A DNA stretch of 41,757 nt. It comes from an uncultured Prevotellaceae bacterium (GTDB taxonomy: Bacteria > Bacteroidota > Bacteroidia > Bacteroidales > Muribaculaceae). Shown piece after piece: positions 2,171 to 14,467 of the stretch. The notes beneath the pieces were generated by a model, which was not told the DNA's origin, did not search any database, and was given only the letters and a program-made list of their open reading frames with translations. The stretch covers positions 1-41,757 of the forward strand of contig ONOU01000030.1 in NCBI GenBank assembly GCA_900319525.1. The letters run 5' to 3'. Both the position numbers and the translations under genes were made by a program. Numbering within the stretch: the stretch's first letter is position 1; each line of letters opens with the position of its first letter.

Positions 2171-3202
2171 TTAGGGGTGGCGGGTGGTGCCGCGGACGAC
2201 GAGGCGGGTCTTGACGATGCGTTTCTCGGCGTGGTCGCGTGGCAGTATGCCCTCGACGAGGCCGATGAGGATGTCGGCGGCCTCCTTGCCCACTTGCGCG
2301 CCGCGCTGCTCGACGGTCGTGAGCATGGGGTCGCACACGGTGGCGCGGAAACCGTTGGTGAAGCCGCAGATGCTCACCTCGTCGGGCACGTTGAAGCCCA
2401 TGCGCTTGACCACCGACAGGATGCCGATGGCCGTCTCGTCGTTGACGGCGAAGAAGGCATCGGGTCGGCCCTGCATACGCATCATGGCGGGGGTAATGCG
2501 CTCGGCGTCGGCGCGGTTGTCGCAGATGCGCACCAGTGACTCGTCAAGTGATAGCCCGTGCTTGTACAGGGCGTCACGATAGCCGTTATAGCGGTTTTTG
2601 GCAATTTCCATGCTCATGGGGGCACCGTAGAAGGCAATGCGCCGGCATCCGGTCTCGATGAGGTGGGAGACGGCGTTCAGTGTGCCCATGTAGTCATCCA
2701 CGACCACACGGCTGGCATTGAGCGCAGGGCAGATGCGGTCATAGAAAACCAGCGGAACGCCTGCTGCCTCGAGGTGGAGGAAGTGCTCATAGTGCTCGGT
2801 GTCCTTGGCTTGAGAGACGATAATGCCGCACACTTTGTTCTTGAGCATGTCTTCACAGATCTGCACCTCCCGCTCGTAACTCTCGTTGCTCTTGGCCACA
2901 ATGATATGGTAGCCGCGTGCCGATGCCTCGCCCTCGATGCCGTCGAGGATGGATGAGAAATAATAGTGCACCAGTTCCGGGATGATGACACCGATGGCGC
3001 GTGAAGGATTGCGGCGGCTGTGCCGCAGCTGCTCGGCAATGACGTTGGGGAAGTAATTGTGTTCCCGGGCATACTGCTGGATGGCTTTGCGTCGTTCGCG
3101 GGAAATGCTGGCACTGTCGCTCAGCGCTCTTGATACGGTGGCTACCGACACGCCCAGCTCGCGTGCGATATCTTTCATAGTCAGTTGTCGTTTATCATCC
3201 AT
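2171..3202 (-). CDS. LacI-family transcriptional regulator
   Basis: The 343-residue protein has the classic LacI/GalR plan. An N-terminal helix-turn-helix and hinge helix (about residues 8-60, MKDIARELGVSVATVSRAL) are followed by a periplasmic-binding-protein-like sugar domain (about 65-340) with the typical IGVIIPEL, FYDR and FAVNDETAIG segments. The gene is divergent from susC. A CRE-like operator lies between them at 3300-3313, and an identical one precedes the amylase gene. The local regulator of the starch locus is therefore most likely this protein, although Bacteroides thetaiotaomicron uses the unrelated SusR. The inducer is probably a malto-oligosaccharide or a derivative (inference). 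A weak minus-strand -7 box (TACCTTCG, 3273-3280) would put the operator near its own -33 region, consistent with autorepression. The second Met (residue 9) is an alternative start. Confidence 0.92.
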   Translation of the reverse strand: MDDKRQLTMKDIARELGVSVATVSRALSDSASISRERRKAIQQYAREHNYFPNVIAEQLRHSRRNPSRAIGVIIPELVHYYFSSILDGIEGEASARGYHIIVAKSNESYEREVQICEDMLKNKVCGIIVSQAKDTEHYEHFLHLEAAGVPLVFYDRICPALNASRVVVDDYMGTLNAVSHLIETGCRRIAFYGAPMSMEIAKNRYNGYRDALYKHGLSLDESLVRICDNRADAERITPAMMRMQGRPDAFFAVNDETAIGILSVVKRMGFNVPDEVSICGFTNGFRATVCDPMLTTVEQRGAQVGKEAADILIGLVEGILPRDHAEKRIVKTRLVVRGTTRHP

Positions 3203-3299
3203 GTTGGTTGTTGTCGGTTTTACTTGAGTTGGTTTGGTGGTTTAATCCAGCACGCATGATTGCAATGCACTGCGAAGGTAGAACAAAAAATCGAATTGC

Positions 3300-3313
3300 G
3301 CAAACGATTGCAT
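3300..3313. promoter_or_regulatory. LacI-type operator upstream of susC
   Basis: GCAAACGATTGCAT is part of a near-palindrome with a central CG, the arrangement bound by LacI/CcpA-class regulators. The same 14 bases recur at 10879-10892 before the amylase gene. It lies 54 nt upstream of the susC -7 box and in the region expected for the -33 element of the divergent lacI gene. The match and its repetition are seen directly; binding is inferred. Confidence 0.75.
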
Positions 3314-3367
3314 TTATTAAATAGATAATTTAACATTATCAAAAAAGAAAGATAATCTTAAAAAGTC

Positions 3368-3375
3368 TATATTTG
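3368..3375 (+). promoter_or_regulatory. susC -7 promoter box
   Basis: TATATTTG fits the Bacteroidetes -7 consensus TAnnTTTG and is identical to the box before the amylase gene. No good TTTG -33 element lies 19-21 nt upstream, as would be expected of an activator-dependent promoter. It predicts an untranslated leader of about 125 nt before the ATG at 3507. The rest of 3203-3506 is AT-rich with no gene. Confidence 0.7.
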
Positions 3376-3506
3376 CCATGTTTTAATTGCCTAAAAGCGG
3401 CCTTGTGACCATACTGGCCAAAAGCCCATCGGGGCAGGCATGAAACGACGCATGACTATTAAACAATTGATTACCAATTATAATATTAACTTTCAAACAA
3501 TTTAAA

Positions 3507-6500
3507 ATGAAGCAGGTAAACATCAGAATTCCGTTTAGGATTCTTACCCTCGTGATGGGACTCTTCCTGTCACTGGGAGCCTATGCACAGATTACTGTGA
3601 ATGGCATTGTGAAGGATGCTACCGGCGAGCCTGTGATCGGCGCGAGTGTTCGTGTCGTTGGCAGTCAGCAGGGAACGGTGACCGACTTTGACGGTCTCTT
3701 TACCCTTGATGGCGTGCCCCAGGGCGCCAAGCTCCAGATTTCGTCTATCGGCTACGAGACCCACGAGGTCACGGCAGCCAGTGACATGGTAATTACCCTA
3801 GCCGAGAGCACCCAGATGCTTGAAAATCTGGTGGTCATCGGTTATGGTGTAGTAAAGAAAAACGACTTGACCGGTTCGGTAACGGCGCTCAAGCCCGATG
3901 CCAAGAACAAGGGTGTCGTTGTCAGTGCCCAGGACATGCTCGGCGGCAAGGTTGCCGGTGTGAGCGTGACCAGCAACAGTGGTGAGCCTGGCGGTGGTGC
4001 TACCATCCGCATCCGCGGTGGTTCGTCGCTCAACGCCAGCAACAATCCCCTGGTCGTTATCGATGGTATCGCCATGGATAACAATGGCGTGAGCGGTCTG
4101 TCCAACCCCCTGTCACTGGTTAACCCCCAGGACATCGAGAGCTTCAACGTGTTGAAGGACGCCTCGGCCACCGCCATCTATGGTAGCCGTGGTAGTAACG
4201 GTGTCATCATCATCACCACCAAGAAAGGTCGCCGCGGCCAGCGTCCCGCTGTTTCTTACAACGGTAGCGCAACCTGGAGCATGAAGAAGAAGACCATCGA
4301 CGTGATGACTGGTGACGAGTACCGTGACTTCGTGAAGGAGATTTTCGCCGGCAGCACCCGCGAGCAAAACGCCCTGTCGCTGCTGGGCAATGCCAACACC
4401 GACTGGCAGAACGAGATCTACCGCACGGCCTTCAGCCACGACCACAACCTGACCGTTTCGGGTTCGGTAGGCCAGATCCTGCCTTACCGCATCTCGGCCG
4501 GCTTCACCGACCAGCAGGGTATTCTCAAGACTTCGGACTACAAGCGTTACACCGTGGCCTTGAACCTGAACCCCTCGTTCTTTGATGATCACCTGACGAT
4601 GAACCTCAGCGGTAAGTTGGCGTGGACCAAATCCCGCTGGGCCGACACCGGCGCCGTGGGTAATGCCGTCCGCATGGATCCGACGCAGCCCATCTATAGC
4701 AGCGATGAAAAGTATAACGGCGTGGGTGGCTACTTTGAGTGGCTCCAGCCTAATGGCTCGGACAGTGCTTGGCCCTACACCAAGAACACCAACGCACCTT
4801 ACAACCCCGTGGCCATGCTCGACAACCATGACAACAGTGGTAAGACCCACTCGTTTATCGGTACTGCCGAGATCGACTATAAGATCCACGGCTTTGAGGA
4901 CCTGAGGCTGCACCTCACCCTGGGTGGTGACTTCACTGGCGGTAATGGCCACAACATCAGTGCCAATATCTCCAACACCTCCAACTACTGGGGCAACAAC
5001 AGCTGGTACACCCAGAGCAAGGAGAATCTGCAGTTGAGCACCTATGCCCAGTACTACAAGGACTTCAACGACAAGCACCACTTTGACATCATGGCCGGTT
5101 ACGAGTGGCAGCACAACTGGCGCAAGGAGTACAACGAGTCATGGGGCACCTATCCCACCAACTCGGCACTCTTCTTCACCGACGCCGACAGGGAAATTCC
5201 TGGTGCACTCGTTGTAACCCCTGGCCTGTGGGTTCCTGGTGCCACCTACAATGTGGGCGACAGCAAGGCTGGCGCTATCCGTGGCGAGGGCGCTTATTAT
5301 CAGCAGAATGGTCTGGGTTACCGCACCGAGAACTACCTGGTGTCGTTCTTTGGCCGTGCCAACTACACCTATGACAACCGCTACTTGTTGACCTTCACCA
5401 TGCGTTATGACGGTTCTTCACGTTTCAAGAAGCACTGGGCACTGTTCCCCTCTGCAGCATTGGCATGGAAGATCAACGAGGAAGCCTTCTTGAAAGATGG
5501 TCCCTTCAGCGACCTGAAGCTGCGCCTCGGTTGGGGTAAGACCGGTCAGCAGGAAGGCATCGGCGACTACAACTACTTTGCCACCTACGTGATGAGCAAC
5601 GGTAGCCAGGGTTCCTACTATGATATCTCTGGTGACGGCACCAAGGCTAGGCCCAACGTCTATAACCCCGAGCTGAAGTGGGAGACCACCACGACGACCA
5701 ACATCGGTCTGGACTGGGGTATCATGAACCAGCGCCTGAGCGGTAGCATCGACTGGTATTATCGCAAGACCACCGATCTGCTGAACTGGGCCACCTTCTC
5801 GGCTATGACCAACTTCAAGAACGCGTTCTACAAGAACATCGGTTCGCTGCGCAACACCGGTATCGAGTTCTCGTTGAACTGGAAGGCCATCAGCACCAAC
5901 GACCTGTTGTGGACCATCGACTATAACTTGACCTACAACAGCAACAAGATCACCGAGCTCATCAGTGACGATCCCGATTACTTCGTGACCACTGGTAGCA
6001 TCGGCATCAACGGTAATGCCCAGGCTCACGTCGTGGGTCATCCCTCTAACAGTTTCTTCGTTTACCAGCAGGTCTATGGCCAGGATGGCAAGCCCATCGA
6101 GGGCCAGGTGGTAGACCGCAACGGTGACGGTGTGATCAGCGACGCCGACAAGTACCTGTACAAGTCGCCTTGGGCTCCCGTGACCATGGGTCTGGCATCC
6201 CGCCTCGACTGGAAGAACTGGGACTTCGGCTTCAGCCTGCGTGCCAGCATCGGCAATTACCTGTTCAACAACGTGATGCAGGGTTATCACAACGTGAGCA
6301 CTGCAGCCGTGTTTGAGGAGGTGGGTGCCTTCTACCTGAACAACCGTCCCCGCTCTTCGGTGGAGATGGGCTGGCAAACCTATAACAACCACGCTAACTT
6401 CAGCGACTACTGGGTACAGAACGCATCGTTCCTCAAGTGTGACAACATCACCCTGGGTTACAGCTTCAACAACCTGCTGAAGCGCGGCAGCTACAACGGC

Positions 6501-6647
6501 ATTGGTGGCCGTATCTATGGTAGCGTCAGCAACGTATTCTGCATCACTAAGTATGACGGCATCGATCCCGAGGTATTCGGTGGCATCGGCGGTGACATCT
6601 TCCCGCGTCCCATCTCGTTCATCCTGGGTCTGAGCCTGAACTTCTAA
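3507..6647 (+). CDS. susC: SusC-like TonB-dependent outer-membrane transporter
   Basis: The 1046-residue SusC/RagA-family transporter imports oligosaccharides across the outer membrane using TonB energy. It has a signal peptide ending near GAYAQ (residue 28), a carboxypeptidase-regulatory-like domain (about 30-105; GEPVIGASV), a TonB-box-like VVIGYG at 109-114, a plug domain (about 118-240; ending in the VLKDASATAIYGSRG and IITTKKG signatures) and a 22-strand-type barrel finishing in FILGLSLNF. Length and the C-terminal aromatic residue are typical. susD follows after 43 bp, then two SusE/F-like lipoproteins, so the complex is the starch-uptake type. Malto-oligosaccharide substrate is inferred from the neighbouring amylase and SusA-like enzyme. 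The long ORF antisense to its 3' half (5418-6659) is a codon-bias shadow. Confidence 0.97.
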   Translation: MKQVNIRIPFRILTLVMGLFLSLGAYAQITVNGIVKDATGEPVIGASVRVVGSQQGTVTDFDGLFTLDGVPQGAKLQISSIGYETHEVTAASDMVITLAESTQMLENLVVIGYGVVKKNDLTGSVTALKPDAKNKGVVVSAQDMLGGKVAGVSVTSNSGEPGGGATIRIRGGSSLNASNNPLVVIDGIAMDNNGVSGLSNPLSLVNPQDIESFNVLKDASATAIYGSRGSNGVIIITTKKGRRGQRPAVSYNGSATWSMKKKTIDVMTGDEYRDFVKEIFAGSTREQNALSLLGNANTDWQNEIYRTAFSHDHNLTVSGSVGQILPYRISAGFTDQQGILKTSDYKRYTVALNLNPSFFDDHLTMNLSGKLAWTKSRWADTGAVGNAVRMDPTQPIYSSDEKYNGVGGYFEWLQPNGSDSAWPYTKNTNAPYNPVAMLDNHDNSGKTHSFIGTAEIDYKIHGFEDLRLHLTLGGDFTGGNGHNISANISNTSNYWGNNSWYTQSKENLQLSTYAQYYKDFNDKHHFDIMAGYEWQHNWRKEYNESWGTYPTNSALFFTDADREIPGALVVTPGLWVPGATYNVGDSKAGAIRGEGAYYQQNGLGYRTENYLVSFFGRANYTYDNRYLLTFTMRYDGSSRFKKHWALFPSAALAWKINEEAFLKDGPFSDLKLRLGWGKTGQQEGIGDYNYFATYVMSNGSQGSYYDISGDGTKARPNVYNPELKWETTTTTNIGLDWGIMNQRLSGSIDWYYRKTTDLLNWATFSAMTNFKNAFYKNIGSLRNTGIEFSLNWKAISTNDLLWTIDYNLTYNSNKITELISDDPDYFVTTGSIGINGNAQAHVVGHPSNSFFVYQQVYGQDGKPIEGQVVDRNGDGVISDADKYLYKSPWAPVTMGLASRLDWKNWDFGFSLRASIGNYLFNNVMQGYHNVSTAAVFEEVGAFYLNNRPRSSVEMGWQTYNNHANFSDYWVQNASFLKCDNITLGYSFNNLLKRGSYNGIGGRIYGSVSNVFCITKYDGIDPEVFGGIGGDIFPRPISFILGLSLNF

Positions 6648-6690
6648 TTGCGCCGACACATTATACTAATTTATAATTAGATTGAACACA

Positions 6691-8361
6691 ATGAATAAGT
6701 TTTTCAAATATATATTGAGTGCTGCTGTGGTGCTGATGATGGGTGGCGGACTGACCTCCTGTATCAACGACCTGGATGTGGAGCCCATCGACCCCTCGTT
6801 GCAGAGCGATGTCACTCCCGAGCAGCTGTTCAACAAGTGCTATTCGGTCTTCGCTACCTCGGGTAACAACGGTGGTGACGACAATGTTGACGTTGACGGA
6901 CTCGATGGCGGTTTCCAGCACAAATACCGCCAGATGTGGAACTCTAACGAGTTGACGACCGATGAGGCCATCTGCGGTTGGGGTGATGAGGGTATCCCCT
7001 CCTATTGCCACAACACCTATGACGCCAGCCACCCGATGCTGCGCGGTTACTACTATGGTCTGTGTATCGGTATCACCTTCTGCAACCAGTATCTGAGTGA
7101 ATTTGGTGATTATGATGCCACGATGACTGCCGAGGTTCGCTTCCTGCGCGCCTTCCAGTTCTACCTGTTGACCGATGCCTTTGGCAACATCCCCTTCGCC
7201 ACCACCATCTCGGGTGACAACCCCGAGCAGTACAGCCGTGCACAGGTGTGCGAGTTCATCGAGAAGGAACTCAAGGCTATCGTCGGCGAGGACGACAGTG
7301 ACAACGCTACTATCCTCAATGACCCGAAACCCAAGAAGTATGGCGAGGCTGGTTATGGCCGCATCGACAAGGCCGCTGCATGGATGCTGCTGGCCCGTCT
7401 GTACCTCAACAGTGAGGTCTATACCGGTACTCCCCGCTGGGGCGACGCCGCTACCTATGCCAAGAAGGTGATGGACTCCAACTACAAGCTGTTCACCACG
7501 GGCTATGCAGGCAATGGCATTGATGGCGTTTACCGCGAGTACAGCGCCTACCAGATGCTGTTCATGGGTGACAACGGCAAGACCGATGCTGCCTATGAGG
7601 CTGTATTCCCTGTTATTCAAGATGGTCTGCGCACCACCTCTTGGGGCGGTACCAACTTCTTGATCTGCTCGACCGCCGATGTCGATATGCACCCCAACCA
7701 GTATGACGAGACCGAGGTCAATGGTCTGTACAACAACAGCGCATGGGGTGGTAACCGTGCACGTCCCGAGTTGATCCGTCTGTTCTTCCCCAACGATGAC
7801 GCACCTGCTGGCCACGCTTATGTGCTGGCCATGGCTGCCGAGGACGACCGTGCCCTGTTCGAGACCGAGGGCCGTTACCTCAACGTGGAAGATGAGTCCA
7901 ACTTCAAGTATGGCTATGCTGTTGCCAAGTTCAACAACTTCAAGTGTGACGGCAGCAAGGGTAGCGACATCACCTTCGCCGACTCCCACCTGTTCTACAT
8001 GCGAGTGGCTGAGGCTTACCTGACCTATGCTGAGGCTCTGACGCGTCAGAATGGCGCTGTTGCTCCTGCCGAGGCCGTGGCTGCCATCAATGCCATCCGT
8101 GGCCGTGCTCACGCACAGCAGCGCAACCGCTACACCCTCGACCAGATCCTGGACGAGTGGGGTCGCGAGTTCTACTTTGAGGGTCGTCGCCGTGTCGATT
8201 TGATCCGCTTTGGCAAGTTTGGTGGCAACACCGACTACCAGTGGCAATGGAAGGGCGGCGTGTATGCAGGTCGTGACTTTGAGGCATTCCGCAATGTGTT
8301 TGCCATCCCCACCGATGACCTGATTGCCAACTCCAAGCTGCAACAGAATCCCGGTTATTGA
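6691..8361 (+). CDS. susD: SusD-like starch-binding outer-membrane lipoprotein
   Basis: The 556-residue RagB/SusD-family lipoprotein is the lid partner of SusC. The ATG at 6691 is preferred over an upstream TTG at 6682 because it gives a normal lipoprotein leader: MNKFFKYILS, a hydrophobic stretch, and the lipobox LTSC with Cys24. Acidic residues soon after the Cys fit surface export. The N-terminal SusD-like region covers about 30-300, and the conserved C-terminal block WGREFYFEGRRRVDLIRFGKF lies near 490-510. It sits 43 bp after susC and 42 bp before the next lipoprotein gene, so the genes are surely one transcript. It should capture starch helices at the cell surface and hand them to SusC. 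Confidence 0.96.
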   Translation: MNKFFKYILSAAVVLMMGGGLTSCINDLDVEPIDPSLQSDVTPEQLFNKCYSVFATSGNNGGDDNVDVDGLDGGFQHKYRQMWNSNELTTDEAICGWGDEGIPSYCHNTYDASHPMLRGYYYGLCIGITFCNQYLSEFGDYDATMTAEVRFLRAFQFYLLTDAFGNIPFATTISGDNPEQYSRAQVCEFIEKELKAIVGEDDSDNATILNDPKPKKYGEAGYGRIDKAAAWMLLARLYLNSEVYTGTPRWGDAATYAKKVMDSNYKLFTTGYAGNGIDGVYREYSAYQMLFMGDNGKTDAAYEAVFPVIQDGLRTTSWGGTNFLICSTADVDMHPNQYDETEVNGLYNNSAWGGNRARPELIRLFFPNDDAPAGHAYVLAMAAEDDRALFETEGRYLNVEDESNFKYGYAVAKFNNFKCDGSKGSDITFADSHLFYMRVAEAYLTYAEALTRQNGAVAPAEAVAAINAIRGRAHAQQRNRYTLDQILDEWGREFYFEGRRRVDLIRFGKFGGNTDYQWQWKGGVYAGRDFEAFRNVFAIPTDDLIANSKLQQNPGY

Positions 8362-8403
8362 TCGGATATCAATGTCTAACATTATAAAATGACAATAAAG
8401 AAC

Positions 8404-9585
8404 ATGAAAAAGATATTTTTATCAACACTGATGCTGCTGAGCATGGCGCTCGTGTTCACGGCCTGCGAGGACGATCGAGATTCCAATCCCACGCTGGTCC
8501 AGCCCACGTCGTTCACGCTCAATAACCCCGTGAACACGCTGGTTAATCTGGCAGCTTCGACGGGCATCCCCTTTGCCTGGTCGCAGCCCGACTTTGGAGG
8601 CTGGCCTGCCGCTTGTGAGTATCAGCTCGAGGTTTCACCCACCAACGAGTGGACCGTATCGACCGCCGATGCTGATGCCGATACTACTGGTACTGTGGTT
8701 GCCAACTATGCCACGATCAAGACGGTGTATGCAAGTTGCAGTGGCAACATGCTTACCGAGGAGCTCAACAAGGCCTTGAACAAGATTGCCAAGTGGGAAG
8801 AGGGCAATGTTCCCGAGAAGCAGACCGTGTATGTGCGCTGCAGTGCTGTTACCGCCGGTGCACAGAAGGTTTACTCCAACGTGGTAAGCCTGGACGTGAA
8901 CCCCTATTATGTTGACGTCAGCACCGAGGTGAGCGACGAGATTCAGCTGTGGTACCTCATCGGTGCTTGCATTGGTGACGGTTCATGGGGCAATAATGCC
9001 GATGGTGTGGGTGTATCCATCATCCCGATGTATCCCGTTTATAAAGATGATGGCAGCGTAGTACCCGGTGAAATCCAGTATGTGGGTTACTTCCCCGCCG
9101 ATCAGGGCTTCAAGCTCATCCAGGTTCCTGGTGACTGGAAAGCTCAGTGGGGCCAGGGCGATGCCGGCTACGTCAAGAATGACGGTGGCAGCAGTGACAT
9201 TAAACTTCCTGCCGATGGTTACTACATGATCCACCTGAACACCGCTACCGACGAGCTCACCATCGAGCCTTACGTCCTGGCTGTGGGCGTTTACAATCAG
9301 ATTGCCATGCCTGGCAACTATCAGGGCTGGGATACGGGTTCTGACCTGATGAATCCCATGAGCACCGTCGTTGAGAACCACGACTGGTACCTGAAGAGTG
9401 TGACCTACGAGGAGACAACCCTCAAGTTTGCTGCCGACAATAGTTGGGATGTAAACTGGGGCGGTAAAGGCTTCCCCCACGGCCTGGGTACTCAGGGTGG
9501 TCCCGACATCGCCGTTCCTGCTGGCACCTACAATGTGTACTTCAACGATATCTTGGGTACCTACAGCTTTGTGCCTGTCAAGTAA
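8404..9585 (+). CDS. SusE-like surface starch-binding lipoprotein
   Basis: From the ATG at 8404 the product is 393 residues with a canonical leader and the lipobox FTAC followed by acidic residues (CEDD). An in-frame ATG five codons upstream (8389) is possible. An N-terminal SusE Ig-like domain (about 35-165; SFTLNNPVNT, then AFAWS-like strands) is followed by two carbohydrate-binding modules. The first begins LWYLIGACIGDGSWGNN near 180; the second begins near 300 (MPGNYQGWD). These modules repeat closely in the next gene. SusE and SusF of Bacteroides bind starch without cutting it. The position directly after susD supports this role; the sugar contacts cannot be verified by eye. Confidence 0.92.
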   Translation: MKKIFLSTLMLLSMALVFTACEDDRDSNPTLVQPTSFTLNNPVNTLVNLAASTGIPFAWSQPDFGGWPAACEYQLEVSPTNEWTVSTADADADTTGTVVANYATIKTVYASCSGNMLTEELNKALNKIAKWEEGNVPEKQTVYVRCSAVTAGAQKVYSNVVSLDVNPYYVDVSTEVSDEIQLWYLIGACIGDGSWGNNADGVGVSIIPMYPVYKDDGSVVPGEIQYVGYFPADQGFKLIQVPGDWKAQWGQGDAGYVKNDGGSSDIKLPADGYYMIHLNTATDELTIEPYVLAVGVYNQIAMPGNYQGWDTGSDLMNPMSTVVENHDWYLKSVTYEETTLKFAADNSWDVNWGGKGFPHGLGTQGGPDIAVPAGTYNVYFNDILGTYSFVPVK

Positions 9586-9597
9586 TTAATAACCTTA

Positions 9598-9705
9598 GTT
9601 GTAAGTTTTAAGTTTTTAGTTTTAAGTAATGATACTTTAGCCCTACTGTTTTCGGGAGATAGTAATAGTACTTACAACTTAAAACTTACAACTTGAAACT
9701 GAAAA
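9598..9705. repeat. Heptamer repeat arrays forming an inverted repeat
   Basis: Four 7-nt units of the type GTTTTAA (9598-9625) face five units of the type CTTACAA/CTTAAAA (9671-9705), so the two arrays are roughly reverse complements. The second array ends exactly at the ATG of the next lipoprotein gene. Related heptamer arrays occur at 35583-35673 and 38897-38938. Between the arrays is about 45 nt of unremarkable DNA. Confidence 0.75.
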
Positions 9706-10794
9706 ATGAAAATGAAGAAGTTTTTATATATTGCAGCAACCGCGCTGTTGCTGGCAAGCTGTACCGAGGATTTCAAGGACTGGGCTGAGCCCCAGAGCAA
9801 TCCTCAAGGTGAGGTGATCACCTTTGGCAACGGTTCGGTGACCCCGGTGAATACCATCGACTTTGCCGTGGAGACCGGCGAGCGTGTCAAGGTGTGTGAC
9901 ATTATCGCTCCCTCGACTAGTGACACGACCTATATTCCTCAATATCACATCTTCCTGAATGGTCAGGGCTTTGTCCTGAGTGAGGATGGTACGATCAATG
10001 CACAAGAGCTGAAGGACTATGTGATCTCGCTCTATGGCAAGGCACCCGAACCCCGCGTGTTTAATGCTCAGGTAGAGTGGCTCATGACCAATGGCACTAC
10101 TGGCACCACTATCAAGAGTGAGCCGTTTGAGCTGACTGTGATTCTTGAGCCTATCGCCAAGCCCGACCTGTGGTATCTGGTAGGTTCGTGCATCGGTGAC
10201 GGTTCGTGGGGCAACGAGCAGGCCAAGATTGGCATCTCACTTATTCCCATGTACACCGAGGCCGAGGACTTCACCGTTCTGACCTATGCCGGTTATTTCC
10301 CCGCAGGACAGGGCTTCAAGCTCATCCACACGCCGGGTAGCTGGGATGAGCAGTGGGGTGCAACCGCCGACGGCACCTTCGTGAAGAATGATGGCGGCAG
10401 CACCGACATCAAGATGGCAGCCGACGGCTATTACCTGATCACTTATGACATGAGTGCCGAGACGCTGACCATTACCCCCTATGACGGAGAAGTTCTTGCC
10501 TTCTCGTCGATGGGTATGCCTGGCGACTATCAGGGCTGGGATGCCGGTGGCACGCTGATGACCCCCATGAGCACCGTTGTGGAAAATCACGACTGGATCA
10601 TGAGGAATGTGACCTACGACAACACCGAGCTCAAGTTTGCCGGTGATGGCGGTTGGGGCCACAACTGGGGCAGCACCCAGTTCCCTGTGGGCACTGGTGT
10701 CCAGAATGGTGCCAATATCCCCATCGAGGCCGGTACCTATACCGTTGTCTTTAACGACATCCTGGGCAAGTATTACTTCATCAGCATGCAGTAA
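9706..10794 (+). CDS. SusF-like surface starch-binding lipoprotein
   Basis: This 362-residue lipoprotein has a short leader and the lipobox LASC (CTEDFKD). Its N-terminal domain (about 25-150) looks like the DUF5115-type domain of SusF-like proteins. Two carbohydrate-binding modules follow: the first starts LWYLVGSCIGDGSWGNE near 158, the second SMGMPGDYQGWD near 267. Both modules are close paralogues of those in the preceding gene, including GYFPA-QGFKLI and FVKNDGGS-DIK stretches, so the pair arose by tandem duplication with N-terminal replacement or divergence. It should add starch-binding sites around the SusCD complex. A strong terminator follows, so this is the last gene of the susCDEF transcript. 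Confidence 0.92.
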   Translation: MKMKKFLYIAATALLLASCTEDFKDWAEPQSNPQGEVITFGNGSVTPVNTIDFAVETGERVKVCDIIAPSTSDTTYIPQYHIFLNGQGFVLSEDGTINAQELKDYVISLYGKAPEPRVFNAQVEWLMTNGTTGTTIKSEPFELTVILEPIAKPDLWYLVGSCIGDGSWGNEQAKIGISLIPMYTEAEDFTVLTYAGYFPAGQGFKLIHTPGSWDEQWGATADGTFVKNDGGSTDIKMAADGYYLITYDMSAETLTITPYDGEVLAFSSMGMPGDYQGWDAGGTLMTPMSTVVENHDWIMRNVTYDNTELKFAGDGGWGHNWGSTQFPVGTGVQNGANIPIEAGTYTVVFNDILGKYYFISMQ

Positions 10795-10820
10795 TCACTT
10801 GTCAACCGTAATATGAATTG

Positions 10821-10862
10821 CCGAGGGCAGGCCCGTGTGTGGCTTGCCCTCGGTATTATTTT
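10821..10862 (+). terminator. Rho-independent terminator after susCDEF genes
   Basis: CCGAGGGCAGGCC (10821-10833) pairs with GGCTTGCCCTCGG (10841-10853), with one G-T pair and a 7-nt loop, followed by TATTATTTT. It separates the lipoprotein genes from the independently promoted amylase gene. Confidence 0.88.
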
Positions 10863-10878
10863 GGCCATTGATGGGCCT

Positions 10879-10892
10879 GCAAACGATTGCAT
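10879..10892. promoter_or_regulatory. LacI-type operator upstream of the amylase gene
   Basis: GCAAACGATTGCAT is identical to the operator at 3300-3313 and here is preceded by T, giving the near-palindrome TGCAAACGATTGCA. It lies 55 nt upstream of the TATATTTG box at 10948-10955, against 54 nt for susC. It follows the terminator directly, so it belongs to the amylase promoter. Confidence 0.75.
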
Positions 10893-10947
10893 GTAAAAAA
10901 TAATTGTGCAAATTTCACTTATCTCCATGTAATTGAGGATAAATGAC

Positions 10948-10955
10948 TATATTTG
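10948..10955 (+). promoter_or_regulatory. -7 promoter box of the amylase gene
   Basis: TATATTTG fits TAnnTTTG and equals the susC box. No clear -33 TTTG is seen at 19-21 nt. The leader to the ATG at 10990 would be about 30 nt. Confidence 0.7.
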
Positions 10956-10989: not shown

Positions 10990-13068
10990 ATGAAAAAGCT
11001 TTTTACTACTGCACTTGTTGTGTTGCTGCCGCTATTGCTCATGGCGCAAGGCTGGCCGGCAAAGTATGGTGGCGTGATGTTGCAGGGATTCTATTGGGAT
11101 TCCTATAATGACACACGCTGGCCCAAACTCGAATCTCAGGCCGATGAGTTGGCCGAGTTCTTCAAGCTCGTGTGGATCCCCCAGAGTGCTTCTTGCGGAA
11201 GTGGCACGTCGATGGGATATGACGACCTGTACTGGTTCTCAAACTACAACAGCTCCTTCGGTAACGAGGCACAGCTGCGTTCGTTGATCAATACCTTCAA
11301 GAGCAAGGGCATCGGCACCATTGCCGACGTGGTGATCAATCACCGCAAGAATGTATCCAGTTGGGTGGACTTTCCCGTCGAGGTGTACAAGGGTGTGACC
11401 TACCAGCTCAAATCTACCGACATCTGCAAGAACGACGATGGCGGCAACACGCTCACGTGGGCTGCGCAGAACGGTTACTCGTTGAGTGCCAACAATGACA
11501 CGGGCGAGGACTGGGGCGGCATGCGCGACCTGGATCACCGCAGCGAGAATGTGCAGAAGAATGTCCTGGCCTATCTCGGCATGCTGCTCAACGACCTGGG
11601 TTATGTGGGGTTCCGCTACGATATGACCAAGGGGTATTCCGCTTCCTTCACGGGACTATATAACTCGACAGTGAATCCCGAATTCTCGGTGGGTGAGTAC
11701 TGGGACGGCTATCTGCCCAGTGTCAGGAACTGGGTTGACGGTACCAAGGTTGATGGTGTGGTGCAGAGTGCGGCATTTGACTTCCCCTTCCGCTATACCA
11801 TCCGCGATGCGGCCAACAATAACAAGTGGACCAACCTGAGCGGCAGTGACAAGGGCCTGAACCTGGCTACCAATTACAAGCGATATGCCGTTACCTTCAT
11901 TGAGAATCACGACACTGAATACCGTAGCGCGTCGGCTCCCCAGGATCCCATCAAGAACAACATCGAGGCCGCCAATGCCTACCTGCTCTCGATGCCCGGC
12001 ACGCCTTGCATCTTCCTCAAGCACTGGCAGGACTACAAGGAGAGCATCAAGCAGATGATCTATGTGCGCCAGTTGGCAGAAATCAGCAACACAAGCGTGA
12101 CCTACAACCTGAGCAAGAGTGATGCGTCCAATTACTATGTACAGCGCACGGTGGGTGACCGTGGCATGGTCCTGGCTGCGATGGGCTCGACAGCCTACAC
12201 GATCCCTGCTACCTATGTTGTGGTGTTGAGCGGAACCAACTACCGCTTGGCGTTGAGCAAGACCACCGAGACCGCATGGGCCAGCAAGCCCAGTGGCACC
12301 TATGAGGGAGCCATCAACGTGGAACTCACTGCCGTGAGCCAGACCGATGGCGCCCAGCTCGTCTATACCCTGGACGGTAGCGAACCCACTGCCAGCAATG
12401 GCACCAAGGTCGCTAGTGGCGCGAGCGTGAACATTAACAAGCAGACAACGCTCAAGGTGGGCCTGCTGATTGGTGGTGCCGTGAGCGGTGTGATCACCCG
12501 CAATTATGAGATCGACAACAGCGATTTTCAACCTTATGAGATCACGGTCTATCTCAAGGATCCCACTGTGGCACCCAACAACTGGCCTATGGTGAATTTC
12601 TACACTTGGGACAGTTCGGACAAGCAGTTCAACGGCAACTGGCCCGGCCAGACCATTACCGACACTAAGGTCATCAATGGTGTCAAGTTCTACTATTGCT
12701 CCTACAATATTACGGGCAAGAACTATTACATGAACTTCGTGTTCAATCAGGGCGGCAGCTCGGCCGGCAGCCATCAGACCGAGGACGTGACCTTTGTGAA
12801 CAAGACTTCCTTCTTTGAAGTCACTACCCAGACCAACAAGTACCAGATCAAGGATGTCACCGATCAGTATTTGCCCTTCATCGATGGTGTGAAGGGCGAT
12901 GTGAACGGCGACGGCGAGGTGAACATCGCCGACGTGAATTGCCTGATTGACATCATCCTGGGTGTGAGAGATGCCAGTGAGTTTGCTGGTAGGGCCCTGG
13001 TCAATGAGGATACAGAGGTGAACATTGCCGACGTGAATGCGGTAATTGACATCATTTTGAGCGAGTGA
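10990..13068 (+). CDS. Secreted GH13 alpha-amylase with starch-binding and dockerin-like domains
   Basis: The ATG at 10990 gives 692 residues with a Sec signal peptide (about 1-19, ending LLMAQ) and no lipobox; an upstream TTG start is rejected. The GH13 catalytic domain (about 20-420) has region I IADVVINH (111-118), nucleophile Asp211 in FRYDMTKGYS, acid/base Glu236 in SVGEYWDG and the stabilising Asp308 in IENHDTE. Then come a chitobiase-C-like beta domain (about 433-508; VYTLDGSEPTAS), a CBM26-like starch-binding module (about 516-612; VNFYTWDSS, WPGQ) and two dockerin-like calcium repeats (about 635-692; DVNGDGEVNIADVN, then a degenerate VNEDTEVNIADVN). It should cut alpha-1,4 bonds of starch outside the cell. 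It has its own LacI-type operator. The galactanase gene follows after 31 bp. Confidence 0.95.
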   Translation: MKKLFTTALVVLLPLLLMAQGWPAKYGGVMLQGFYWDSYNDTRWPKLESQADELAEFFKLVWIPQSASCGSGTSMGYDDLYWFSNYNSSFGNEAQLRSLINTFKSKGIGTIADVVINHRKNVSSWVDFPVEVYKGVTYQLKSTDICKNDDGGNTLTWAAQNGYSLSANNDTGEDWGGMRDLDHRSENVQKNVLAYLGMLLNDLGYVGFRYDMTKGYSASFTGLYNSTVNPEFSVGEYWDGYLPSVRNWVDGTKVDGVVQSAAFDFPFRYTIRDAANNNKWTNLSGSDKGLNLATNYKRYAVTFIENHDTEYRSASAPQDPIKNNIEAANAYLLSMPGTPCIFLKHWQDYKESIKQMIYVRQLAEISNTSVTYNLSKSDASNYYVQRTVGDRGMVLAAMGSTAYTIPATYVVVLSGTNYRLALSKTTETAWASKPSGTYEGAINVELTAVSQTDGAQLVYTLDGSEPTASNGTKVASGASVNINKQTTLKVGLLIGGAVSGVITRNYEIDNSDFQPYEITVYLKDPTVAPNNWPMVNFYTWDSSDKQFNGNWPGQTITDTKVINGVKFYYCSYNITGKNYYMNFVFNQGGSSAGSHQTEDVTFVNKTSFFEVTTQTNKYQIKDVTDQYLPFIDGVKGDVNGDGEVNIADVNCLIDIILGVRDASEFAGRALVNEDTEVNIADVNAVIDIILSE

Positions 13069-13099
13069 GAAATGGTTTATTCAAGTAATTTACATTGAG

Positions 13100-14467
13100 A
13101 TGAAAGGCTCTATCAGGCAATTTTTATGTTTAGCATTGACATTGACGGCATTAAGTGCTAATGCCGCCAGTAGGGGCGACGTGAATGGTGATGGCGAGGT
13201 GAACATCGGTGATGTGACCTATCTCATCGACATGATTCTTGACGGCAACGAGGACTTGAAGGGCGACGTGAATGGTGATGGCGAGGTGAACATTGCCGAC
13301 GTTACCGCTGCCATCGACATCATTCTGAATGGTGGAAGCGAGGAAGAACCATATGACGGGCCTGTTGTGGGCGGTGATATCTCGATGTTGACCAAGTACG
13401 AGGCCCATCAGCTCATGGCTCAACAGCAGTATCATATCAACAGCGCCCATTACTATGACATGAACGGCAGGGTTATCGACGATGTCATCACGTGGGCCAA
13501 GCAGCAGGGTTGGAACGCTGCGCGTGTGCGCCTGTTTGTCAATCCCGCCAACGCATCGGCGACCGACAAAGGACAGGGCGTGATCCAGAATCTGGACACC
13601 GTCAAGGTGCTGGGACGACGCATCAAGGAGGCCGGCATGCAATTCATGCTCGATTTCCATTACAGTGACAGCTGGGCCGATCCCGTCAAGCAGTACACTC
13701 CCGCCGAGTGGGCTGGCTTGAACGATGAGGAAGTGACGGTCAAGATCTACGAGTACACACGCGACTGCCTGCGCGCTCTCAAGGACGCTGGTGCCAAGCC
13801 CGACTATATCCAGACGGGCAACGAAATCAGCTACGGCATGTTGTGGGGACCCGTGGGCACCTCGGCGTCCAATCTCAAAAAGTGCTATAGCGGTGACGAG
13901 ACCAACTGGCTGCGGTTTACCAATCTGCTCAAGGCCGCTGGACGTGCTTGCCGTGAAGAGTGCCCCAATGCCAAAATCATCCTGCACACCGAGCGTGTGG
14001 CTAAGCCCAACATCATGCTCAACTTCTACAACCAGATGAGGAGCAAGGGTGTGGACTATGACATTATCGGCCTGAGTTACTATCCTTATTATCATGGAGC
14101 CCTGTCCAACTTGGCAAACGCACTCAACAATTTGACCAACAGCTATCAGGACAAGGATATCATGATTGTCGAGACGGGATACAGCTATCATTATGCCATC
14201 TCAGGCGACTATGACCTCACCTCGACCTGGCCCTTGACAGCCGAGGGACAGCGCCAGTTCACTGCCGACCTGATTGCACGCCTCAAGCCTTACAGTAAGG
14301 TGAAAGGACTGTTCTGGTGGTTCCCCGAGGCCAATGAGTATGGTCTGGGTGGCAGCTACTGGAACACGCTGCACGTCAATGACGCATGGTATAACGCAGG
14401 CTTGTGGAACCACGAGACCGGTCGTGCCACGCCAGCCCTGTATGAGCTCAAATCCTTCGTGGAGTAA
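13100..14467 (+). CDS. GH53 endo-beta-1,4-galactanase with N-terminal dockerin-like repeats
   Basis: The 455-residue exported protein has a signal peptide (about 1-23), then two dockerin-like calcium loops (26-48 and 55-77; GDVNGDGEVNI in each), then a GH53 TIM barrel (about 92-455). The acid/base Glu242 lies in YIQTGNEISYG and the nucleophile Glu358 in MIVETGYSY, both in the expected family motifs, with ARVRLFVNP and FHYSDSWADP as further markers. GH53 enzymes cut beta-1,4-galactan of pectic arabinogalactan I, a substrate unrelated to starch. The gene lies 31 bp after the amylase gene with no visible terminator, so co-transcription is likely. Dockerins usually sit at C-termini; here they are N-terminal and their DNA nearly matches the 3' end of the amylase gene. 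Confidence 0.94.
   Translation: MKGSIRQFLCLALTLTALSANAASRGDVNGDGEVNIGDVTYLIDMILDGNEDLKGDVNGDGEVNIADVTAAIDIILNGGSEEEPYDGPVVGGDISMLTKYEAHQLMAQQQYHINSAHYYDMNGRVIDDVITWAKQQGWNAARVRLFVNPANASATDKGQGVIQNLDTVKVLGRRIKEAGMQFMLDFHYSDSWADPVKQYTPAEWAGLNDEEVTVKIYEYTRDCLRALKDAGAKPDYIQTGNEISYGMLWGPVGTSASNLKKCYSGDETNWLRFTNLLKAAGRACREECPNAKIILHTERVAKPNIMLNFYNQMRSKGVDYDIIGLSYYPYYHGALSNLANALNNLTNSYQDKDIMIVETGYSYHYAISGDYDLTSTWPLTAEGQRQFTADLIARLKPYSKVKGLFWWFPEANEYGLGGSYWNTLHVNDAWYNAGLWNHETGRATPALYELKSFVE
13175..13293 (+). repeat. Direct repeat encoding dockerin-like loops
   Basis: A 32-nt sequence at 13175-13206 recurs identically at 13262-13293 (87-nt period); both encode GDVNGDGEVNI. A close variant lies at about 12896-12930 in the amylase gene. 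Identity at silent positions points to recent duplication or gene conversion. Confidence 0.85.

Follow-up and report, generated by a model that had tools for sequence, protein, structure and literature searches.

How are starch genes controlled where a susC-type gene lies divergent from a gene for a LacI-family regulator? The textbook starch switch of the Bacteroidota is SusR. The question is raised by a 41,757-nucleotide stretch of contig ONOU01000030.1 (the window) from an uncultured Prevotellaceae bacterium (GCA_900319525.1), in which a regulator gene, here called lacI, faces away from a starch-utilization gene cluster. The initial annotation had proposed that the lacI product activates the susC and amylase promoters from identical upstream operators, represses its own gene, and replaces SusR. 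We consider it probable (about 0.75) that this protein is a position-dependent regulator that would activate susC, the amylase gene, and other alpha-glucan genes, and would repress lacI where the operator lies 18–19 nt from the lacI promoter box.

Distance between operator and promoter box

The window contains two identical 14-mers, GCAAACGATTGCAT, on the plus strand at the coordinates that had been claimed (Table 1), and the gaps of 54 and 55 nt between them and the TATATTTG boxes of susC and the amylase gene were also correct. The core of the operator is the 12-mer GCAAWCGWTTGC, a palindrome with a central CG; counted from the end of this core, the gaps are 56 nt (susC) and 57 nt (amylase). 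Within the organism's own genome (3,284,459 bases), exact copies of the 14-mer were confined to the window pair, and the reversed control pattern gave none. There are four perfect 12-mer cores (zero mismatches), and TAnnTTTG lies 55–57 nt downstream of all of them (C20:3300, C20:10879, C12:357882, and C31:91306-91380), so that the proposed genome scan for the 14-mer and its distance to TAnnTTTG found a fixed distance at every perfect core. Of the two cores that lie elsewhere in the genome, one is followed by a GH13 gene (L187) and the other by a gene encoding pullulanase X25 and dockerin modules (L188). When two mismatches were allowed, the 12-mer matched 369 sites in this genome versus 229 for the reversed control, which was too noisy; loose matching was dropped, and exact cores plus the box were used instead.

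We then compared lacI loci from 148 genomes, comprising the window, 80 of 94 other loci from its genus, 38 loci judged to come from outside the genus, and 29 further loci. The 38 were taken from a scan of named genomes that gave at least 80 loci, ten of its last 48 being omitted as genus genomes; the 29 are the best-scoring 30 of 55 loci from the family of a Prevotella isolate, minus one repeat, with the 25 weaker matches left out. In 143 of the 148 loci, an operator (GCAANCGNTTGC) was present no more than 520 nt upstream of lacI. Among the 141 lacI-susC regions that were comparable, having at least 70 nt of sequence beyond the operator, 135 (78 from the genus and 57 others) carried TAnnTTTG 53–57 nt from the operator, whereas dinucleotide shuffling predicted 0.59; three of the remaining regions have the box at 58–59 nt. 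The distance from operator to lacI varies from 45 to 465 nt, so the distance to the box is not explained by an intergenic region frozen as a whole. Chance or recent copying as the origin of the 14-mer pair was rejected, since the same layout is found again in many genomes whose spacers are unrelated.

The sites follow the gene. A lacI ortholog (at least 63% identity) was found in 95 of 101 genomes of the genus, and both gene and sites occurred together in all 48 high-quality ones (at least 90% complete, at most 5% contaminated). In a sample of 149 genomes from the family, the ten genus members carried lacI at 66–100% identity and the best match outside the genus was 37–40% identical; 3 of the 139 family genomes without an ortholog held one operator-box pair each, at 59, 43, and 49 nt. 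Orthologs were also present (E 1e-90 or better) in 55 of 301 genomes sampled from the family around one Prevotella isolate, and the loci kept from the named-genome scan (at least 80) came from metagenome-assembled genomes labelled Muribaculaceae, Prevotellaceae, Prevotella, and others, and from two Prevotella isolates. Cultured bacteria with this arrangement include Prevotella sp. tc2-28 and tf2-5 (L282 and L284). The pattern core-N42-71-TAnnTTTG matched 100 of the 101 genus genomes (reversed control, 0), giving 501 pairs in total; among the 150 pairs listed, 129 were at 53–57 nt and 9 at 48–49 nt. Neighboring 30-nt distance bands matched 47 and 46 of the 101 genomes, and many matches in the nearer band were lacI's own promoter, at 19 nt. 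Outside the genus, 37 of the 38 genomes contained pairs, 95 of 99 of them at 54–57 nt; in the sole pairless genome (G254) the susC operator (L277) has one base changed. A single fixed upstream distance, as is expected of a Class I-type activator, was thus found both in the susC regions (135 of 141) and in the listed genus pairs. Three LacI orthologs that are 56–57% identical (L360, L361, and L362) have the box at 58–59 nt; the gene across the operator from them weakly matches the window's GH53 protein (30–31%), and no susC was found there.

The −33 element, TTTG (consensus in PMC7366714), was sought 19–21 nt before the box. The initial annotation had seen no clear −33 element in either window promoter, and TTTG is indeed absent from that position in both. 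After thinning to less than 80% identity, TTTG was found at −33 in 1 of 44 susC promoters from the genus and 0 of 44 others. None of 40 lacI promoters of the Prevotella type had it (45 of the 62 offered complete flanks, and thinning reduced these to 40). Among the other target promoters it occurred in 3 of 43, which is roughly its frequency at other spacings.

We examined the genes behind further sites in 38 regions, hand-picked and non-random, from the listed genus pairs, plus the two own-genome regions. Pairs at 53–57 nt led to 41 downstream genes, and another site was cut off by the end of its contig. According to Pfam, 19 of the genes encode an alpha-amylase domain (one of these is branching-enzyme-like) and 13 encode CBM26, CBM20, or X25 modules only, several of them cut by the end of the fetched sequence and one (L200) with a CBM26 score slightly under the cut-off. 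The others are one glycogen synthase gene, five genes for major facilitator superfamily transporters, two for FUR-family regulators, and one without a telling domain. The sampled sites therefore mostly precede alpha-glucan genes. At the FUR-family genes (L189:1501-1926 in G150 and L197:191-610 in G153), the gap from operator to TAnnTTTG is 57 and 56 nt, respectively; downstream genes were chosen by a simple open reading frame rule, and for L189 an ATG-only rule gave a different gene. A metal or peroxide regulator within a starch regulon was unexpected.

The lacI promoter and the genes of the window

Counting either TAnnTTTG or TAnnTTCG as a lacI box, we found the box 18–19 nt from the operator in 60 of 80 genus loci, with the operator covering the −33 position. 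This overlap, which is also present in the window, agrees with the geometry proposed earlier for repression of lacI by its own product. TTTG stands at −33 in 49 of 50 of these gap-19 promoters, mostly as letters of the operator itself. In loci from outside the genus, the lacI box lay 54–57 nt from the operator in 62 of 63, so that a single operator in Prevotella-type genomes is about equally far from both boxes; two of these loci (L345 and L361) have a second lacI box at 18–19 nt besides. Where operators are doubled, each is about 56 nt from its own promoter (L358 and L363), or one is at 19 nt for lacI and the other at 56 nt for susC (L095). By coordinates, the 19-nt and 56-nt operators of G152 (L094, a single contig) are about 1.5 kb away from lacI, and something therefore separates lacI from its usual promoter region.

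In a FastTree phylogeny of 142 proteins with four outgroup paralogs, the sequences from the genus, with gaps of 19 or 49 nt, grouped together (support 0.94) and were nested among gap-56 sequences. Six other gap-56 sequences formed a deep clade outside, and the support for the large gap-56 group was low (0.25). By parsimony on this tree, gap 56 is the older spacing.

The lacI product belongs to the LacI/GalR family by both of its domains: an N-terminal LacI helix-turn-helix (PF00356, E 1.6e-15, 57.1 bits, cut-off 27) and a C-terminal periplasmic-binding-protein-like domain (PF13377, 116.8 bits; PF00532, 98.9 bits). NCBIfam LacI-family models matched it with every score below the respective cut-off; it scored under the cut-offs for CcpA (TIGR01481, 166.5 bits versus 442) and CytR (NF008269, 198.8 bits versus 436), the latter being its best NCBIfam match. 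Its nearest solved structural relatives are CcpA structures. The lacI gene is divergent from a run of susC, susD, and SusE/F-type genes, which is followed by genes for a GH13 amylase, a GH53 protein, and, on the minus strand, a cyclomaltodextrinase. The amylase gene has an ATG start at 10990; the listed open reading frame begins at a TTG at 10933. Pfam Dockerin_1 modules occur in the window's amylase and GH53 protein (10990-14467) and in many amylases and X25 proteins of the regulon (L187, L188, L194, L199, L210, L214, and others); an amylosome-like assembly of these proteins would require cohesins.

Table 1. Positions in the window of the operators, predicted promoter elements, and genes
Feature	Position	Strand	Basis
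lacI: 343-residue LacI-family regulator, helix-turn-helix and sugar-binding-like domain	2171..3202	−	PF00356, PF13377, PF00532
Predicted lacI −7 box TACCTTCG, one letter off TAnnTTTG	3273..3280	−	Sequence; among gap-19 lacI promoters
Operator 1: 14-mer GCAAACGATTGCAT	3300..3313 (core 3300-3311)	+	Exact sequence match
TTTG at lacI −33 position, 20-nt spacer, within operator 1	3301..3304	−	Sequence
Predicted susC −7 box TATATTTG	3368..3375	+	54 nt after 14-mer; position kept in relatives
susC-type TonB-dependent transporter	3507..6647	+	TIGR04056, 776 bits
susD-type starch-binding lipoprotein	6682..8361	+	NF033071, 428 bits (below cut-off 725); PF07980
SusE/SusF-type protein	8389..9585	+	PF16411, PF14292
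SusE/SusF-type protein	9706..10794	+	PF16411
Operator 2: 14-mer GCAAACGATTGCAT	10879..10892 (core 10879-10890)	+	Exact sequence match
Predicted amylase −7 box TATATTTG	10948..10955	+	55 nt after 14-mer; sequence
GH13 alpha-amylase with CBM26 and dockerin-like module	10990..13068	+	PF00128, PF16738, PF00404

Proposed activation or repression by the LacI-family protein

We propose that the lacI product binds the palindrome as a dimer. About 62 bp would separate the operator center from the upstream end of the −7 box, which places the center at about −74 from the expected start (a figure estimated from the name of the −7 box). Protein bound there would activate promoters lacking a −33 element by recruiting RNA polymerase to them. 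Class I activators such as CRP act from helix-phased upstream positions near −62 to −93 by recruiting polymerase to weak promoters; this would be a comparable way of working, although the protein family and the sigma factor differ. Of the earlier claim that both window promoters are activated, the box-locked position and the missing −33 TTTG stood and fit activation, and activation itself is what we would predict from them. Where the operator precedes the −7 box by 18–19 nt, which is the case for lacI in most members of the genus, the protein would cover −33 and repress its own gene; at the Prevotella-type lacI promoters, at about 56 nt, it would activate it. The ligand is probably a malto-oligosaccharide.

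Several points weigh against this proposal. LacI-family proteins usually repress, and inducer usually frees them from DNA, so a starch activator of this family would need the opposite response to its ligand. The sites, their distances, the missing −33 element, the co-distribution, and the target classes are observations; binding, activation or repression, start sites, and ligand are predictions made from them. The related sequences are not independent of one another, although their spacers and flanks differ. The 14-mer with up to three mismatches was at background level (4 matches versus 5.8 expected), and the signal consequently rests on exact cores and box distance. Five of the 148 loci had no operator within 520 nt (L094, L259 [at a contig end], L338, L359, and L365), the operators of L359 and L365 having one mismatch each, and three had an operator and no susC box (L087, L345, and L356). 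In 20 of the 80 genus loci the lacI box is at 48–49 nt, which fits neither geometry. Finally, the TTTG of gap-19 lacI promoters is for the most part contributed by the operator sequence, so only the spacing is independent evidence there. The loci with the lacI box at 48–49 nt form a subclade (for example L088, L090, L091, and L096).

The protein could instead be an ordinary repressor that acts at about −74 on susC and the amylase gene by looping, bending, or polymerase trapping until a starch sugar releases it, and we regard this as unlikely. Repression is the commoner role in the LacI family, and the site at lacI overlaps the −33 position; many repressors are named in the accessible part of PMC4052901. 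Promoters without a −33 element, however, would be weak unaided. Moreover, one operator usually serves a promoter, so there is no partner for looping, and the alignment to E. coli LacI (340 of 343 residues, reaching residue 329) puts the end of the protein at about residue 332, from which we presume that it lacks the tetramer-forming tail of LacI. A distance locked to 1–2 bp across an unconserved spacer would also bring a repressor little gain.

Somewhat less likely still is a second activator that binds between operator and box and is modulated by the LacI protein, as CytR works with CRP. The susC promoters have in common an A+T-rich, TTTAACA-like stretch downstream of the operator, as such an activator would predict, and CytR is the best NCBIfam match, though far under its cut-off. 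In the other 43 target promoters, a set in which no two reach 80% identity, the spacer conserves nothing but A+T-richness, which indicates that distance alone is kept and leaves no common motif for a second protein. The stretch in Prevotella-type lacI promoters differs from that in susC promoters, and a general A+T-rich UP-like element would account for the latter.

It is very improbable that the fixed sites belong to another transcription factor: binding of the lacI product is a prediction, and sites persist in five of the six genus genomes in which lacI was not detected, but these six assemblies are 67–87% complete and may simply be missing the gene, gene and sites coincide in all high-quality genus genomes, the 139 relatives without the ortholog nearly lack the sites, and a palindrome with a central CG, usual for the LacI family, stands upstream of lacI itself in 143 of 148 loci, following the distribution of the gene.

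We therefore prefer activation from a locked position. We also lean toward the broader interpretation that a large rumen/gut Bacteroidales genus and Prevotella-type bacteria have in this protein a lineage-wide activator of starch and other alpha-glucan genes, which works from a single locked position on promoters without −33. On this interpretation, its own gene went from self-activation to self-repression in one lineage because the lacI promoter shifted by about 37 bp with respect to the operator it has in common with susC.

SusR and other known regulators

The idea that the LacI protein replaces SusR holds at this locus and not genome-wide. Unlike SusR, a membrane protein (NF058541; PF19904 in a relative), the window protein is of the LacI type, with no SusR-family match (NF058541 or PF19904) among its Pfam and NCBIfam hits. 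The own genome has five SusR-family genes, of which the three listed are full-length (contigs C36, C14, and C30). The C36 gene is near GH32, GH16, and SusC/SusD genes. The C14 gene (L411, G000:C14:60000-79500) has a GH13/CBM26/dockerin gene on one side and a SusC/SusD pair on the other; alpha-glucan use in a single cell may therefore depend on both types of regulator. SusR-family matches occur in 87 of the 101 genus genomes, 43 of them over the cut-off, and one relative with no LacI match (G046) has a SusR-family gene in its sus-like locus (457 bits, cut-off 480).

According to the available text of PMC3878776, SusR activates Bacteroidales starch-utilization genes beside the sus operon, and SusR-like and hybrid two-component system motifs are direct repeats, whereas the site described here is a palindrome. 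The same text assigns the Bacteroides LacI-family regulators KdgR, UxaR, UxmR, and UxuR to uronate pathways and starch to SusR; these proteins share family and order with the window protein but concern uronate rather than starch. The sole LacI mention in the accessible part of PMC11784079 likewise concerns uronate genes. Some LacI-family proteins, CcpA and Cra/FruR, have dual roles; Cra represses some genes and activates others (PMC4052901, in part). CcpA and Cra/FruR are global regulators in other phyla, whereas here a starch regulon would be controlled at Bacteroidota promoters from one locked distance. MalR/MdxR resemble the window protein in family and in gene class (maltose/maltodextrin), but the portion of PMC4052901 available to us terms the Firmicutes MalR a repressor, unlike the activator proposed here. 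In the literature on LacI-type regulators and on the promoter box, available mostly as titles and abstract openings, we recognized no LacI-family starch activator in the Bacteroidota.

These results suggest that a family usually considered to consist of repressors may supply an activator of starch genes in many species of rumen and gut Bacteroidales. The rule of a 12-mer, about 56 nt, and TAnnTTTG is sharp enough for regulon prediction from sequence, and the system would offer a simple setting in which to study contact between an activator and the unusual Bacteroidota polymerase and sigma factor. The predicted reversal of self-regulation, at an operator that lacI shares with susC, would be a natural experiment in promoter evolution.

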